In this document: positions 56,019 through 63,618 of the stretch, piece by piece
How positions within the stretch are numbered: the stretch's first letter is position 1
Layout: the number at the start of each line of letters is the position of its first letter
DNA from: Sphaerotilus uruguayifluvii
GTDB lineage: Bacteria > Pseudomonadota > Gammaproteobacteria > Burkholderiales > Burkholderiaceae_C
Direction of reading: 5' to 3'
NCBI RefSeq assembly: GCF_013294065.1
Contig: NZ_JABSNM010000003.1
Span: 159,351-223,350, forward strand
DNA length: 64,000 bases
The notes under the pieces: model-generated
Database searches by the model: none
Seen by the model: the letters and a program-made list of their open reading frames with translations, nothing else
What the model was told of the DNA's origin: nothing
Made by a program: the position numbers and the translations under genes

Positions 56019-56044
56019 CGCGCCCGGAGACTCTGCACGACACC

Positions 56045-56701
56045 ATGACCGACCGCGCCAAGAAGGCCCCGCGGCGCACCGCCGAACGCATCCTCGACCA
56101 CACGCTGGTGCTGTTCAACCGCTATGGCGAGCCCAATGTCTCGACCAATGCGCTCGCCGCCGAGCTGGGCATCAGCCCCGGCAACCTGTACTACCACTAC
56201 CCGGCCAAGGAGGCGCTGGTCAACGCGCTGGTCGGCCGCTACGAGCAGGCGCTGGCCGGGGCGCTGGCCGCCGCCGGCCCGGCCGACGATGCCGAGGGCG
56301 CCTGGCTGCTGGTGCCGGCGCTGCTGCGCCTGGCCTGGGACTACCGCTTCATCTTCCGCGACCTCAACGACCTGCTGACGCGCAACCGCCAGCTCGAGAC
56401 GCGCTGTCAGGCGGCGCTGGCGCTGCAGCAGGCGGCGGTGCGCGAGCGCGTCGCGCGGCTGTGCATTCTCGACGGCGCGCCGATCAGGCCGGAGGACGCC
56501 GACGCGCTGGCCACCTCGATCATCGTGCTGCTGACCTACTGGCTGAGCTACGAGTACGTGCGCGACCCGCGCCGCGCGCTCGAGCCCGACAACGCCGACG
56601 CCGCGGTGCGGCGCGGCACCCGGCAGGCGATGGCGCTGCTGTGGCCCTACCTGAGCGCGGAGCGCCGGCTGCAGCTGCGGCCGGGCAGCCGGGACACCTA
56701 G
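56045..56701 (+). CDS. TetR-family transcriptional regulator
   Basis: The 218-residue protein has the TetR helix-turn-helix at about residues 12-58 (NVSTNALAAELGISPGNLYY, then YPAKEALVNALV) and an all-helical ligand/dimer domain. The inducer and targets are unknown; the adjacent yghU gene is a candidate target. Its TAG stop shares the palindrome CTAG with the stop of the convergent gene. Confidence 0.9.
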   Translation: MTDRAKKAPRRTAERILDHTLVLFNRYGEPNVSTNALAAELGISPGNLYYHYPAKEALVNALVGRYEQALAGALAAAGPADDAEGAWLLVPALLRLAWDYRFIFRDLNDLLTRNRQLETRCQAALALQQAAVRERVARLCILDGAPIRPEDADALATSIIVLLTYWLSYEYVRDPRRALEPDNADAAVRRGTRQAMALLWPYLSAERRLQLRPGSRDT

Positions 56702-57402
56702 GCGGGACAGGCCGCCGGCACCTCGACGGCTTCGGCCGCCACCGGCTGCGCCCGGACCGGCAGCTGCGGCAGCGCCCGCATCACCGCCCGGCCGAGCACC
56801 GAGCCGAAGAAGTCCGGCCACAGGCCGTGGCGGGCCAGCCAGTCCGACGACAGTCCGTCGTGGGCCCTGAGGTCGGCGGCCAGACCGGCGACCGCCTTCG
56901 ACGGCGTGAACAGGCCGGTCGCGCGGTCGAGCGCGGCGATGCGGCGCGCCCAGGCATCGCCCGGGGCGTCGCCGATGTCGGCCCAGCTGCGCGCCAGCGA
57001 GGCGGCGAAGGAGCGCAGCAGCGGCCCGTCCTGTCCGAAGCCGTGCGCATAGCCGGCGAGCAGCTCGGCCCGCCAGCGCGCCGCGGCGGCGGCGTCGCCC
57101 CGCGCCAGCGCCGCCGGCAGCACCTGCTGCCAGTACAGCGCGACCCGCTCGGGCTCGACCAGCGGCAGCGGATCCTCGCCGTCCACCCAGAAGGCCAGCG
57201 GCAGCCGACGCCATTCGGCCCGCGCCAGGCCCCGGCGCGGATCGTCGCCGGCCTGCTTCAGGCGCCGGCGCAGCACCGGCCCGAGCCGCGACGCATCGCC
57301 CGGCACCGGATCGACCGGCGGCGCAGGATCGGGGCCGCGCAGCTGCACGGCCAGCGCCTCGACCGCCGCGGCCACCTGCGGCCAGCCTTCGGCGGCGCTC
57401 AT
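56698..57402 (-). CDS. Unrecognised third protein of the ZorAB-like operon
   Basis: The 234-residue protein has no family I can name with confidence. It is soluble, mostly helical and Ala/Arg/Trp-rich, with no signal peptide or membrane segment and no HNH, helicase or nucleotide-binding motif. The segment ALYWQQVLPAALARG followed by WRAELLAGYAHGF and SFAASLARSW faintly recalls helical EH-signature regions of ZorC, but it is far shorter than ZorC (about 560 residues). Its start overlaps the ZorB-like stop by 4 nt (ATGA), so it is made together with the motor and is the likely effector or regulator. Function is unknown. Confidence 0.75.
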   Translation of the reverse strand: MSAAEGWPQVAAAVEALAVQLRGPDPAPPVDPVPGDASRLGPVLRRRLKQAGDDPRRGLARAEWRRLPLAFWVDGEDPLPLVEPERVALYWQQVLPAALARGDAAAAARWRAELLAGYAHGFGQDGPLLRSFAASLARSWADIGDAPGDAWARRIAALDRATGLFTPSKAVAGLAADLRAHDGLSSDWLARHGLWPDFFGSVLGRAVMRALPQLPVRAQPVAAEAVEVPAACPA

Positions 57403-58181
57403 CGCGAGGCGGCCGCCTCGGCGGCGCGGGCCTTCATCAGCGTGGCCTCCAGCTCGGAAGGCGTGCGGTAGGTCAGCACGATGCGCAGGTCGACGCGGCG
57501 GTTGCGCGCGTCCGTCGGATCGATGCCGGGCAGCAGGCGCTTGTCGCCATAGGCGCTGAAGGAGAACAGCGGCTGCGCCAGCCGGTTGCGGTAGCCGTTC
57601 AGCGGGCTCTGCTCGACCAGCGCCGCATGCACCGCCCGCGCGCGGTCCAGCGACAGGCTGGTGTTGTCGTAGGCGCCGCGCGCCATCGGGCGGCTGTCGG
57701 TGTGGCCCTCGATGTAGATGGTGTCGATCTCGTGGCCGGCGCGGTTGCCGGCGCAGCCGCTGGCCACCTTCTGGTTGGCGACGTAGCAGGGCAGCACCTC
57801 GACCAGCCCGTCGACCGCCGCGCGCAGCGCCGCACGCCCCTGGGCCCCGAGCTCGGCGCGGCCGATCGGGAACAGCACGTCCTCCGGCAGCGAGATCACG
57901 CCGGTGACCGGATCGATGCGCACCGTCGGCATCGCCGCCAGCATCGCCTGGCCGATGGTGCCGGTCACCTTGCCGCGCGGATCGGCCTGGCCGCGCAGCT
58001 CGTTCTTCGCCGCCTCGATCTCGATGGCCTGGCGGCGCTGCTCCAGCGCCAGCACCACCACCAGGATGATGAAGACGAAGAGCAGGCCGATCATCAGGTC
58101 GGAGGCCGAGGCCAGGTAGCTGCCCTCGCCGCGGGCGGCGCCGCCGGGGGCCGCGGGCGCGGCGCGTCGGGTCATCAGCAT
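57399..58181 (-). CDS. zorB: ZorB-like OmpA/MotB-type protein
   Basis: The 260-residue protein matches the ZorB plan: a short cytoplasmic N-terminus, one membrane helix preceded by Asp28 (YLASASDLMIGLLFVFIILV), which corresponds to the proton-pathway aspartate of ZorB and MotB, then a periplasmic OmpA-like domain with IYIEGHTDSRPM, NTSLSLDRARAV and ARNRRVDLRI for peptidoglycan binding. Two Cys residues (LPCYV, ASGCAG) may pair. It starts 16 nt after the ZorA-like gene. A flagellar MotB is unlikely, as its partner has a long coiled tail and no MotA features. Confidence 0.85.
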   Translation of the reverse strand: MLMTRRAAPAAPGGAARGEGSYLASASDLMIGLLFVFIILVVVLALEQRRQAIEIEAAKNELRGQADPRGKVTGTIGQAMLAAMPTVRIDPVTGVISLPEDVLFPIGRAELGAQGRAALRAAVDGLVEVLPCYVANQKVASGCAGNRAGHEIDTIYIEGHTDSRPMARGAYDNTSLSLDRARAVHAALVEQSPLNGYRNRLAQPLFSFSAYGDKRLLPGIDPTDARNRRVDLRIVLTYRTPSELEATLMKARAAEAAASR

Positions 58182-58197
58182 GGTCGTCGCTCCGGGA

Positions 58198-60138
58198 TCA
58201 GGCGGCCGCGACCCGCTCCTCGAGCAGGTCCTCGAGGCTGCGGGTGAAGGTGGCCAGCTCGCGCACCGCGCCGCCGATCTGGCCGACCGCGCGTGCCAGA
58301 TGGCCGTCGAGCTGCTGCTGCTGGGCCAGCGCCTGCGCGGCGCCCTGCTCGATGCCGGTGCGCACCGACTCGACCGCGGCGGCCAGCACCGCGGAGCTGC
58401 CGGTCAGTGCATCGCGGCCGGACTGCATCGCCGCGGCGGTGTCGCGGCCGGACTGCTCCAGCATCGCGCCGACCTGGCGCACCGCCTCGAGCGCCTGCGG
58501 CGCGCTCTGGCCGAGCGTCTCGACCAGCGCCTGCTGCTGCCGGGCCAGCGCCTCGACGCCGGACAGCGCGCGGCCGATCTCCTCGGCGATCTGGCCGAGG
58601 CGGTCGGTGGCGCCGGCCCAGCGCGGCTGCACCTGGTCAAGCTGGGCGAGAGTGTCGCGCAGCTGCTGCGCCACCGCGCGGATCTGGTCGGCGCCCTGGC
58701 GGCCCTGGCTGCTCATGTCGGCGAGCACGTCGCGCATCGCCACCGCGCTGGTGGCGAGCTTGTGCTGCGCCGAGTCCAGGTCCTCGGCGCCACGGCCGAG
58801 CACGCCGCCGATGCGGGTCACGCCGCTCTCCAGCTCGGTGCCGGCCTTGTGCAGCGACTGCGCGGCCTGGCTCGCGCTCTCGCCGAAGGAGGCCACCGCG
58901 CGCTCCATCGCGCCGCTCAGCGTCGTGCCGGCGCGGCCCAGCGCGTCGACCGAGGTGGCGATGCTGCTGCCGAAGGCCGTCGAGGTCGCCTGCGCCGAGT
59001 CGCTCCAGGCGCGCGAGGCGGCGGTGAGCTGCATCTGCAGGTCCTGGCCGGCGCCGCGCAGCACCCCGGCGACATCGTCGGCGCCGTTGACCAGCGTGCC
59101 GGCCGAGGCCTGCAGGCGCTCCGACATCAGCGTCAGCGCCGCGCGCAGCTCGCCCATCTCGTGGCGGGTCGACTGCTGGATCAGGCCGGCGTGGTCGCGC
59201 ATCATCTGCTCGAGCGCCTGCTGGTTCATCGCCGAGATCTGGCCGGTCAGGCCGTCGAGGCTGGCGACGATGCGCCGGCTCATCGCCTCCATCTCGGGCA
59301 CGATGGAGGCGCTGATCGAGCGGCCCAAGTGCTCGGCGACCTGGTCGCGGAACTGCGCGAAGAGCTGGCGCTGCTCGCGCGCGACCGTCAGCAGCTCGCC
59401 GGCGCGCGCGTTGCTCGCGTCGAGCCGGGTGTTGACCGCCTCGCCCTGGCGCAGCTGCTCGACCAGCGCCAGCTCGGTGCCGTTGGGCGGCAGCCGCTCG
59501 GCCAGCGCCTCGAGCAGCAGCTCGCAGCGGTCCTGCACCCGCGCCATCGCCCGGCGCGCCGCCACCGTCCAGCCCACCGAGGCGCCCAGGCCCGCCAGCG
59601 AGGTCAGGAACTTGCCGCCGGCAGTGTCGAGCAGCCCGCGGGTCGCGTCGAGCAGGTCGGTCGAGGCCCCGCCCTTCTGCGACAGCGCCGAGGTCGCGCC
59701 CATCAGCGCGCCGGTCAGGAACAGGAAGGTGAAGAACAGGCCGACGCCGACCAGCAGATTGGGCACCGACTCGGCCAGCTCGACGTTGAGCCGCCCGGCC
59801 AGCAGCCGGTTCGGCGTCCAGAGGTCGCGCGGCGAGCCGAGCATGACCACCCGCAGCCGGCCCGAGACCGGCACCGGCATGATGCGCTGCTCGGTCTCCT
59901 GCCAGGCCTGCTTCAGCGCCGGATGGGCGGCGACGACCTGGCGCACGGTGGTCGAGCGGTCGAGCGTCCACGGCTCGCCGACCGGCCCGAACGCGGCCAG
60001 CGTCTCGGACAGCGCCGCGCCCAGCCGGCGCAGCGGCGGCAGGAACCAGAACAGGAACAGGCCGAGCGCCGACAGCAGGATGCCGGAGAACACCAGCCAG
60101 ATCAGCAGCTCGCCACGAAGGAAGGAAAAGGCATTCAA
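58198..60138 (-). CDS. zorA: ZorA-like MotA/TolQ/ExbB-type motor protein with long tail
   Basis: ZorA and ZorB form a proton-driven membrane motor that signals phage infection in Zorya defence. The 646-residue protein has membrane helices at about 10-35, 127-150 (VPNLLVGVGLFFTFLFLTG) and 172-195 (KFLTSLAGLGASVGWTV), as in ZorA, then about 440 residues of amphipathic, Gln/Ala-rich coiled helix projecting into the cytoplasm. This tail distinguishes it from MotA, TolQ and ExbB. It lies 159 nt downstream of recG on the same strand, with a perfect 18-nt palindrome in the gap. Antiviral function is inferred from homology. Confidence 0.85.
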   Translation of the reverse strand: MNAFSFLRGELLIWLVFSGILLSALGLFLFWFLPPLRRLGAALSETLAAFGPVGEPWTLDRSTTVRQVVAAHPALKQAWQETEQRIMPVPVSGRLRVVMLGSPRDLWTPNRLLAGRLNVELAESVPNLLVGVGLFFTFLFLTGALMGATSALSQKGGASTDLLDATRGLLDTAGGKFLTSLAGLGASVGWTVAARRAMARVQDRCELLLEALAERLPPNGTELALVEQLRQGEAVNTRLDASNARAGELLTVAREQRQLFAQFRDQVAEHLGRSISASIVPEMEAMSRRIVASLDGLTGQISAMNQQALEQMMRDHAGLIQQSTRHEMGELRAALTLMSERLQASAGTLVNGADDVAGVLRGAGQDLQMQLTAASRAWSDSAQATSTAFGSSIATSVDALGRAGTTLSGAMERAVASFGESASQAAQSLHKAGTELESGVTRIGGVLGRGAEDLDSAQHKLATSAVAMRDVLADMSSQGRQGADQIRAVAQQLRDTLAQLDQVQPRWAGATDRLGQIAEEIGRALSGVEALARQQQALVETLGQSAPQALEAVRQVGAMLEQSGRDTAAAMQSGRDALTGSSAVLAAAVESVRTGIEQGAAQALAQQQQLDGHLARAVGQIGGAVRELATFTRSLEDLLEERVAAA

Positions 60139-60297: not shown

Positions 60298-62406
60298 TCA
60301 GGCCTTCAGGAACTCCATGCGCCCGCCCAGCCAGCGCTGGATGTGGGCGGCGGCCGCGGCCGGATGGCGCTCGAGCAGCGCGGGCGCCACCGCGCGGGCG
60401 CGCTCGAGCAGCGCGCCGTCCTGGCCCAGGTCGGCGAAGCGCAGCAGCGCGTCGCCCGACTGGCGCGCGCCCATGAACTCGCCGGGGCCGCGGATCTCCA
60501 GGTCGCGCCGGGCGATCTCGAAGCCGTCGGTGGTCTCGGCCATCGCCTTCAGGCGCTCGCGCCCGGTCGGCGACAGGGGCGAGGTGTAGAGCAGCACGCA
60601 CACGCTGGCCACCGCGCCGCGCCCGACCCGGCCGCGCAGCTGGTGCAGCTGCGCCAGCCCGAAGCGCTCGGCGTGCTCGATCACCATCACGCTGGCGTTG
60701 GGCACGTCCACGCCGACCTCGATCACGGTGGTGGCCACCAGCACGCTCATGCGGCCGGACGAGAACTCGCCCATCACCGCCGCCTTGTCGCCGGCCGGCA
60801 TGCGCCCGTGCAGCAGGCCGACCGCGACGCCGTCGAAGGTGGCGGCCAGCCGCGCGTGCGTCTCGGTGGCGTTCTGCAGGTCGAGCGCCTCGGACTCCTC
60901 GATCAGCGGCACCACCCAGTAGACCTGGCGGCCCTTGGCCACCTCGTCGCGCACCCGCTCGATGATCTCGTCGCGGCGGCCATCGGCGAAGACGCGGGTG
61001 ACGATGGGCGTGCGCCCGGGCGGCAGCTCGTCGAGGGTGCTCACGTCCAGGTCGGCGAAGTAGCTCATCGCCAGCGTGCGCGGGATCGGCGTGGCGCTCA
61101 TCATCAGCAGGTGGGGCTCGAGCGCCTGCGCGGCGAGCTTGCGGCGCAGCTCCAGCCGCTGCGCCACGCCGAAGCGGTGCTGCTCGTCGATCACCGCCAG
61201 CCCCAGCCGCGCGAAGCGCACCTCCTCCTGGATCACCGCGTGCGTGCCGACCACCAGCGCGGCCTCGCCCGAGGCCACGCGCTCGAGCATCGCCGCGCGC
61301 GCCTTGCCCTTGCGGCTGCCGGTCAGCCAGGCCACGCCGATGCCCAGCGGCTCCAGCCACTGCAGCAGCTTGCGGAAGTGCTGCTCGGCCAGGATCTCGG
61401 TGGGCGCCATCAGCGCGCACTGCCAGCCCGCGTCGATCGCCACCGCCGCCGACAGCGCCGCCACCACCGTCTTGCCCGAGCCGACATCGCCCTGCAGCAG
61501 CCGGTGCATCGGCTGCGGCCGCGCCAGGTCGGCGGCGATCTCGGCGCAGACGCGCTGCTGCGCGCCGGTCAGGCCGAAGGGCAGCGCCGCCAGCAGGCGC
61601 GCACGCAGGCTGCCCGGCGCGCCCTGCCCGTCTGCCCCGCCGCCGACGGCAGCCAGCACCGGCGCGCGCAGCCGGGCGCGCTCGCGCTGCGCGGTCAGCT
61701 GCGAGAGCTGCTGCGCCAGCAGCTCGTCGAACTTGATGCGCTGCCAGGCCGGATGGCTGCGCTCCTCGAGCTGCCAGGCCGAGGTGCCGACCGGCGGGTG
61801 ATGCAGCAGCTGCAGCGCCTCGCGCAGCGGCGGCAGGCCGCGCGGCACCACGCCGGCGGGCAGCACCTCGTCGAGCGGCGCGCGGCGCAGGCCCGACTCG
61901 ACCGCCTTTCTCAGGTAGGCCTGCGGCAGCTGCGCGCTGGTCGGGTAGACCGGCGTGAGCGCCTCGGCCAGCGGCGCGCCGCCCTCCGGAACCGCCTTGA
62001 AGACCGGATGCACCATCTCTCGGCCGAAGAAGCCGGCGCGCACCTCGCCGCGTACCCGCACCCGCGCGCCCACCGCCAGCGTCTTCTGGTGCGACGGAAA
62101 GAAATGCACGAAGCGCAGGACCAGCTCGGCCGCGCCCTCGACCAGCCGCACGACCAGCTGGCGGCGGGTGCGCGTCTCGACCACGGCGGAGCGGACCACG
62201 CCCTCGACCTGCGCGCTGTCGCCCTCGCGCAGCGCCGCGATCGGGGTCAGGCGCGTCTCGTCCTCGTAGCGCAGCGGCAGGTGCAGCGCCAGGTCGATGT
62301 CGCGCACCAGGCCGAGCTTGTCCATCGCCCGCTGCGGGGCGGACTTCGCTTCAGGCGTCGGGGACGGTGCCGGGGCGGCAGCGGGGGAAGAAGGCGTCGA
62401 GGGCAC
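60298..62406 (-). CDS. recG: ATP-dependent DNA helicase RecG
   Basis: RecG remodels stalled replication forks and recombination junctions. From GTG 62406 the product has 702 residues: wedge/OB domain at the N-terminus, Walker A GDVGSGKT, the DEQH box ([10 protein letters not shown]), SATPIPRTL, and the C-terminal motifs GRVGRG and [13 protein letters not shown]. The start is uncertain: ATG 62325 lies closer to the conserved [15 protein letters not shown], whereas a minus-strand TATAAC at 62461-62456 favours GTG 62406. It is divergent from queA. Confidence 0.94.
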
Positions 62407-62455
62407 GGACAGGGATCGAGGCAGAGATCGGGCGGCCGCCGGGCCAATGGGAATC

Positions 62456-62463
62456 GTTATATT
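62456..62463. promoter_or_regulatory. Overlapping divergent -10 elements between recG and queA
   Basis: The plus strand reads TATATT at 62458-62463, 36 nt before queA, and the minus strand reads TATAAC at 62461-62456, 49 nt before the recG GTG. This is the only AT-rich spot in the gap. The two promoters would compete. No strong -35 is seen on either strand. Confidence 0.45.
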
Positions 62464-62499
62464 CTGCCCCCCCTTCGCCGCGCCCTTCAAGACGACGCC

Positions 62500-63618
62500 A
62501 TGAGCCACCACACCGTCGCCGACTTCGACTTCGACCTGCCCCAGGAGCTGATCGCCCAGCATCCGGCCCCCGAGCGCAGCGCCTCGCGCCTGCTCGACGG
62601 GCGCACGCTGCCGGCCACCGAGCGGGTGTTCCGCGAGCTGCCCGGCCTGCTCGAGCCCGGCGACCTGCTGGTGTTCAACGACACCCGGGTGATCCGCGCG
62701 CGGCTGCACGGCGCCAAGGACACCGGCGGCAGCGTCGAGGCGCTGGTCGAGCGGGTGCTGCCCGGCACCGAGGACGGCCGCCACGAGGTCTGGGCGCACC
62801 TGCGCGCGAGCAAGTCGCCGCGCGCCGGCCAGACGGTGCACTTCCACAATGCCGCCGGCGAGCGCTTCCCCGCCGAGGTGCTGGGGCGCTGCGGCCCGGA
62901 GAACGGCCTCTTCCACCTGCGCCTGCCCGGCGACGCGCTGGCGCTGCTGGAGCAGTTCGGCCATGTGCCGCTGCCGCCCTACATCACGCATGCCGACGAC
63001 GAGGACGACGCGCGCCGCTACCAGACGGTGTTCGCGCGCGTGCCCGGCGCGGTGGCCGCGCCCACCGCGGCACTGCACTTCGACGAGGGCGTGCTGGCGG
63101 CGCTCGAAGCCCGCGGCGTGCGCCGCGCCAGCGTGACGCTGCATGTGGGCGCGGGCACCTTCCAGCCGGTGCGGGTCGAGTCGATCGCCGACCACCGCAT
63201 GCACAGCGAATGGTTCGAGGTGCCGCAGGCCACCGTCGACGCCATCGCCGAGACCCGCGCGCACGGCGGACGGGTGATCGCGGTGGGCACGACCACGCTG
63301 CGCTCGCTCGAGTCGGCCGCGCTGGGCACGCCCGACCGGCTGCCGCGCGCCGGCGCCCGCGACACCGACATCTTCATCACGCCGGGCTTCGACTTCCGCG
63401 TGGTCGACCGGCTGGTGACCAACTTCCACCTGCCGCGCAGCACGCTGATGATGCTGGTGAGCGCCTTCGCCGGCTTCGACGCGATCCGCACGCTCTACGC
63501 CGACGCGATCGCCCGGAAGATGCGCTTCTTCAGCTACGGCGACGCCATGCTGCTCCAGCGTGCAGCATCCGAGGTGAACAGCGCCGATCCATCCGTCAAC
63601 AACGCTGTCTCACGCTGA
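62500..63618 (+). CDS. queA: S-adenosylmethionine:tRNA ribosyltransferase-isomerase
   Basis: QueA transfers and isomerises the ribosyl moiety of SAM to make epoxyqueuosine in tRNA. The 372-residue product has the family blocks [60 protein letters not shown] and [17 protein letters not shown]. The open frame runs far upstream, but the ATG at 62500 begins the conserved protein. The stop codon lies inside a hairpin. Confidence 0.97.

Follow-up and report, generated by a model that had tools for sequence, protein, structure and literature searches.

Genes at the Locus

The window analysed here, a stretch of 64,000 nucleotides from Sphaerotilus uruguayifluvii, carries an operon of three genes related to type I Zorya, the system composed of ZorA, ZorB, ZorC, and ZorD. 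An earlier note on this DNA had placed three tightly linked genes at 56698..60138 and described a ZorAB-like motor operon without ZorC or ZorD, its third gene encoding an unrelated protein. Three minus-strand open reading frames (ORFs) do lie there and the motor assignment holds, but the third protein is, judged by profile and alignment, the N-terminal half of ZorC, with the conserved C-terminal half missing. The features of the operon are as follows:

58198..60138, minus strand: zorA-like gene, 646 residues, TTG start; MotA/ExbB-type channel region and a long cytoplasmic tail
57399..58181, minus strand: zorB-like gene, 260 residues; Asp28 and an OmpA-type peptidoglycan-binding domain
58098..58100, minus strand: codon of ZorB Asp28, the expected ion-binding aspartate; invariant in the aligned ZorB rows
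56698..57402, minus strand: zorC-N, the third gene, N-terminal half of ZorC; 234 residues, assigned from PADLOC ZorC1, phmmer, and alignment

A gap of 16 bases separates zorA from zorB, and zorC-N begins with an ATG that shares a 4-base overlap (ATGA) with the zorB stop.

The Third Gene and ZorC

Against the PADLOC ZorC1 profile, the third protein scored 20.7 bits (E 5e-5), its residues 44-204 aligning to positions 52-200 of the 467-position model. A phmmer search against ORFs of related loci matched it to full-length ZorC proteins (453-477 residues) with E down to 1.7e-24, and its identity to such proteins of relatives is 37%. These matches rule out a new, unrelated protein as the product of the third gene, and the description of an operon without ZorC falls with it, since a truncated ZorC belongs to the unit. 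In alignments, the protein tracks the first ~213 ZorC residues and then stops. Among the 62 columns invariant in 10 full-length ZorC rows, 16 lie within the retained part and 46, including the WSH...RA stretch, lie past the cut; the aligner placed the last residues of the window protein on two of these 46 columns, one of them matching. A Pfam search of the third protein gave no match, and a complete ZorC with the EH-signature region was not found in it, the protein covering the N-terminal half only. A full-length ZorC query likewise matched the genomes of S. uruguayifluvii and Sphaerotilus sulfidivorans over the N-terminal half only; in the former the alignment runs ~11 codons beyond one TAG into the end of tetR, which was taken as chance.

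Other identities for the third protein were also considered. It had no match to ZorE at E<=1, and none to ZorF (DUF3348) or ZorG (DUF2894) in Pfam or PADLOC; these comparisons concern the third protein, and the genome was not searched for any of the three. Likeness to blr2150 in the PDB (E 0.0035) was put down to chance because blr2150 is not recovered with the ZorC profile.

ZorA and ZorB

The assignment of the first two genes is borne out by PADLOC, in which the window proteins match ZorA1 (69.1 bits, E 8e-20) and ZorB1 (188.7 bits, E 3e-56). The NCBIfam models are weaker: ZorA scored 75.5 bits against antiphage_ZorA_1, under its cut-off of 190, and ZorB scored 20.5 bits against ZorB1 (cut-off 400), below the 38.4 bits of a MotB-family model, all of these ZorB scores being under their cut-offs. 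The comparison with MotAB and TolQR proposed by the earlier note thus came out for ZorA and ZorB in PADLOC and the other way for ZorB in NCBIfam. By their profile scores, the window ZorA and ZorB are divergent members of their families. The Asp28 and OmpA domain described for ZorB are both present, the aspartate being invariant in 15/15 aligned ZorB rows and the Pfam OmpA match reaching 32.8 bits (cut-off 27.2).

Comparison with solved structures adds to this picture. ZorB matched chain B of 8VVN (E 5.3e-15), the type I ZorAB of Shewanella (PMC11890865). A single-sequence search with the window ZorA returned no ZorA chain from the PDB, only four other chains; a ZorA profile built from nine relatives matched solved ZorA in 8QYK (E 1e-19) and 8VVN (E 3.5e-11). 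In the 8QYK chain, a Thr and a Ser align with Thr137 and Ser180 of the window ZorA. Near the end of the tail, Asp611, Ala615, Ala617, and Leu628 are invariant in 9/9 aligned rows, from both ZorD-bearing and ZorD-less loci, as would be expected of a tail that still has a docking partner.

A motor of the MotAB, TolQR, or ExbBD type could in principle have been misread as Zorya, given the OmpA domain of ZorB, the higher score of the MotB-family models over NCBIfam ZorB1, and the failure of ZorA alone to retrieve a ZorA chain. The PADLOC scores, the absence of a detectable Pfam MotA_ExbB domain (PF01618) in the window ZorA, and the ZorC homologue next in the operon make such a misreading extremely improbable. 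The 5:2 motor architecture of flagellar MotAB is expected here from homology, but the long ZorA tail and the Zorya-type profile matches set the window proteins apart, and no flagellar genes were noticed among the ORFs read.

Search for ZorD and the Missing Half of ZorC

In 13 congeneric genomes, a ZorD query gave full-length matches only in one, G301, in two places (57%). The window genome and 11 others gave partial matches only, mostly to the SNF2 helicase core. A ZorD encoded elsewhere in the genome was considered and rejected: outside G301 the best match spans ZorD residues ~433-927 at 35-39% identity. The 4 kb on the downstream side of zorC-N in the window hold nothing that resembles ZorD or the C-terminal half of ZorC, and a search of nine loci for a downstream relic of either gave nothing better than E 0.08, with none in the window. 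The motor operon without ZorD described by the earlier note is therefore borne out, the genome search having returned only partial SNF2-type matches; of the two genes that the note had looked for in the unit, zorC is present in truncated form and zorD was not found.

G301, a congeneric genome of 6.1 Mb, holds two complete ZorABCD operons ~245 kb apart (L030, L031), whose ZorC proteins are 95% alike.

Locus History and Selection in Sphaerotilus

The operon lies between two chromosomal genes:

60298..62991, minus strand: recG, upstream neighbour outside the Zorya system, called by eye from the ORF and from synteny with L040, L041, and L043; its start codon is provisional
56039..56701, plus strand: tetR, convergent neighbour whose last codons mark the junction; the start is the analyst's choice

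The end of tetR overlaps that of zorC-N, which terminates right at the junction. Eleven other congeneric tetR loci were compared, being those that are neither from S. sulfidivorans nor paralogues. In six of them (L040, L041, L042, L043, L046, and L048) recG follows tetR directly; in the other five, blastn found no recG within the 1.5 kb examined. Given that recG and tetR are directly adjacent in these six loci, the operon appears to have been inserted between them. The unit of three genes is kept in S. sulfidivorans (L015), where the same truncated operon stands beside recG with no frameshift, tetR being found on a different contig. The two species have similar final tetR codons (GSRD, then one residue and the stop), unlike those at the empty site in G303. 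A rearrangement breakpoint lies between zorC-N and tetR in S. sulfidivorans (L015 from 9473 on; L039:1-1500). On the simplest reading, the truncated zorC would have abutted tetR before the two species split, with S. sulfidivorans rearranged there later.

Selection was assessed by the Nei-Gojobori ratio of nonsynonymous to synonymous change (omega) between the window and S. sulfidivorans, a comparison of two sequences only, in which strong codon bias lowers precision. Omega was 0.30 for zorA, 0.25 for zorB, and 0.40 for the whole of zorC-N. Over zorC-N codons 1-213 it was 0.28 (Fisher p 2.4e-6), and over the second part of that stretch 0.17 (p 4e-6). The alignments of zorA and zorB are gapless, and that of zorC-N is interrupted by a single small gap, within the divergent tail. 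The differences between the two Sphaerotilus copies are those expected of genes under purifying selection.

The junction could also be the scar of a decaying remnant, in which a deletion or rearrangement at the tetR end cut into a once complete ZorABCD operon, leaving a non-functional remainder that has yet to erode. Such decay would account for a zorC that ends at tetR and for the later S. sulfidivorans breakpoint at the same place; the patchy distribution (2/13 congeneric genomes), the full ZorABCD of G301 in the same genus, and the order- and class-wide samples without another short ZorC, described below, fit it as well. It sits poorly with three frames intact in both species at omega 0.25-0.40, with an altered tetR end common to both species, so that the truncation is probably older than their split, and with separate ZorD-less loci under stronger constraint in other genera. 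We regard decay as unlikely.

ZorD-Less Loci in Other Genera

The search for related loci returned 12 in total. ZorD is present in four (L016, L017, L018, and L024), and four from Polynucleobacter (L020-L023) have ZorA, ZorB, and a short ZorC with no ZorD. L019 is cut off, and L025 and L026 have a ZorB-like gene only. L019 encodes a ZorA-like protein of 977 residues (L019:2452-5385) with a tail far longer than that of its relatives; the ZorB-like genes of the latter two loci (L025:3417-4307, L026:7992-8828) are on Thiotrichales contigs with no recognised ZorA neighbour.

In Polynucleobacter, a ZorC profile matched 10/151 genomes, and in 7/151 the ZorC is short (296-299 residues); G825 and G737 have full ABCD operons, and a contig end truncates the locus in G747. 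ZorD is absent beside the short zorC in 7/7 loci, also where wider stretches were taken, and whole-genome searches of four of these genomes did not find it either. The seven loci have common upstream genes, and one short ZorC that was tested exceeds the Pfam EH_Signature cut-off. These loci share with the window the order ZorA, ZorB, short ZorC and the lack of ZorD, but differ from it in ZorC length and cut point and in ZorB lineage. Of the six pairs that L020-L023 allow, three were compared and gave omega values of 0.02-0.15.

A second group was found in the genus g80, of the same family as Sphaerotilus, in which the ZorC profile matched 20/61 genomes in 21 places, because two contigs each carry part of one gene. 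Here ZorC is of full length (about 477 residues) except for the split gene, and acs lies downstream in 20/21 loci. There is no ZorD within the 1.5 kb flanks of the 21 places, nor in wider stretches from 9/20 genomes. Among three g80 genomes searched whole, two gave no ZorD match and G184 gave partial SNF2-type matches. The g80 loci thus resemble that of the window in carrying ZorA, ZorB, and ZorC without an adjacent ZorD, and differ in their full-length ZorC and fixed site before acs. In g80, two pairs gave omega values of 0.03-0.35, with zorA covered in just one of them. Constraint is evident in the pairs tested from both genera; several of their dS (synonymous divergence) values are above 0.8 and are rough. 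When 12 g80 genomes without zor genes were searched for an empty recD-acs site, recD was absent from all flanks examined. Some g80 genomes, but not others, have an additional gene of ~190 residues separating zorC from acs (L113:6342-6914, L114:3847-4419).

Wider sampling returned few matches. The ZorC profile matched 5/399 genomes in an order-wide sample and 6/369 in a class-wide one, with the window genome counted in both and at most four candidates scored per genome. A ZorB query across the family matched 6/299 genomes, namely the window genome, two with ABCD operons (G062, G276), and three of g80. Fourteen other ZorC loci were enlarged: nine have an adjacent ZorD, three have ZorC without ZorAB, and two reach contig ends without a recognised ZorD. 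Long ZorC- or EH-signature-like genes with no ZorA, ZorB, or ZorD recognised alongside occur at L104:178-1560, L105:5105-6517, and L107:4888-6339, the first two near contig ends. ZorD-less loci were found in three genera only: Sphaerotilus, Polynucleobacter, and g80.

On a ZorB tree of 36 rows, the ZorD-less label has to change three times, and well-supported branches force at least two of these changes. A single ZorD-less clade was rejected by the approximately unbiased (AU) test (p-AU 7e-10), which left out five rows (L053, L054, and L064 for their long branches, L036 and L067 as duplicates) and used a constraint chosen after the first ZorB tree had been inspected. The simplest account would be two or three independent losses of ZorD, an account weakened by horizontal transfer and long branches. 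In two lineages the loss of ZorD was accompanied by loss of the ZorC C-terminal end, at different cut points.

Relation to Known Zorya Types

In published accounts of type I Zorya, ZorAB binds peptidoglycan and senses infection, and the ZorA tail relays the signal to ZorC and ZorD, the two proteins that attack DNA (PMC11890865, PMC12904381, PMC12409362). The window operon shares with that type the long-tailed ZorA, the ZorB aspartate and OmpA domain, the order A-B-C, and the homology to ZorC. It differs in a ZorC reduced to its N-terminal half and in having no ZorD found in its genome, and because these two defining parts are missing it is, by its gene content, outside type I in the strict sense. 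With types II (ZorABE) and III (ZorABFG) it has the ZorAB core in common, but its third protein falls in the ZorC family and has no ZorE, ZorF, or ZorG match. It is best classed as a reduced form of type I Zorya with more than one origin. Where the earlier note had allowed for a minimal or new Zorya-like type, the minimal variant is the better reading and a ZorAB motor joined to a new protein is not, the third gene being a truncated zorC.

We consider it probable that the window operon represents a reduced type I Zorya, composed of the ZorAB motor and ZorC-N, which has lost the C-terminal half of ZorC together with ZorD and whose remainder is under purifying selection. Several observations weigh against this. 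The first half of zorC-N taken alone has an omega of 0.44 (p 0.02), and dS between the two Sphaerotilus copies is ~0.09-0.24, which limits the selection test. The retained half covers only 16/62 of the positions invariant in full-length ZorC, and the window ZorC-N keeps 12/16 of these. The zorC-N form occurs in only 2/13 congeneric genomes, and no further short ZorC appeared in the order- and class-wide samples, where the other matches were open frames of 438-627 residues. Finally, deletion of each component of type I Zorya, ZorD included, is reported to abolish protection (PMC11890865). From this requirement it follows that the known output should be missing in the window operon, and that ZorD-less loci should rely on a partner encoded at another site or serve a different purpose.

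Under the reduced-locus reading, ZorA and ZorB would form a peptidoglycan-anchored, ion-driven motor that senses envelope disturbance, as in type I Zorya. The C-terminal half of ZorC and ZorD would have been lost before the two Sphaerotilus species split, and the remaining three genes would since have been kept by purifying selection. The motor and the ZorA tail may still signal, with ZorC-N docking on or near the tail; ZorC-N would then be the motor-facing half of ZorC, and the missing C-terminal half the ZorD-facing one. The output, and with it any benefit to the cell, would presumably come from a chromosomal partner acting in trans or from a change in ion flow, rather than from the ZorD nuclease.

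Alternatively, the motor may have left defence for another envelope function, with ZorC-N as a cytoplasmic regulator. The chromosomal setting between recG and tetR would suit this, and no defence genes were noticed among the neighbouring ORFs, which were read by eye with no profile scan. An operon without a nuclease, the fixed site before acs in 20/21 g80 loci, and the same upstream genes in seven Polynucleobacter loci point the same way. The distribution within each genus is patchy (2/13, 7/151, and 20/61), which is more defence-like than housekeeping, and we think a change of function quite improbable, more so than decay.

That related nuclease-free loci are kept intact suggests that the motor can do a job without a DNA-cutting partner. 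More tentatively, and at somewhat less than even confidence, ZorD-free Zorya could be a recurrently evolved functional class in Burkholderiales, in which ZorAB with ZorC or its N-terminal half acts without ZorD, via host DNA enzymes or ion flux, so that motor and adaptor form a separable module. The interest of these loci lies in their recurrence and conservation, beyond the window locus alone. In present models of type I, the motor recruits ZorC and ZorD, which act as the effectors; ZorD-less operons make it testable what ZorAB and ZorC do alone, and which half of ZorC contacts the motor and which ZorD. Such loci may escape defence finders that require all four genes. A literature search of titles and abstracts found no report of ZorD-less type I loci; one account (PMC9148166) dismisses an incomplete Zorya, comprising ZorA and ZorD, from a different bacterium.

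Neighbourhood and Composition

The calls of hisD, murA, recG, and queA near the operon were made by eye from ORF translations, not from profiles. A promoter scan of the operon found no promoter-like site, and a terminator scan found four terminator-like sites, none of them 3′ of zorC-N. A plasmid origin of the operon was considered and set aside, only a single weak plasmid match having been found. GC content at third codon positions (GC3) is 0.975, 0.962, and 0.932 in the operon genes and 0.948-0.969 in recG, tetR, hisD, and murA, and because of this closeness the composition of the operon looks adapted to the host.

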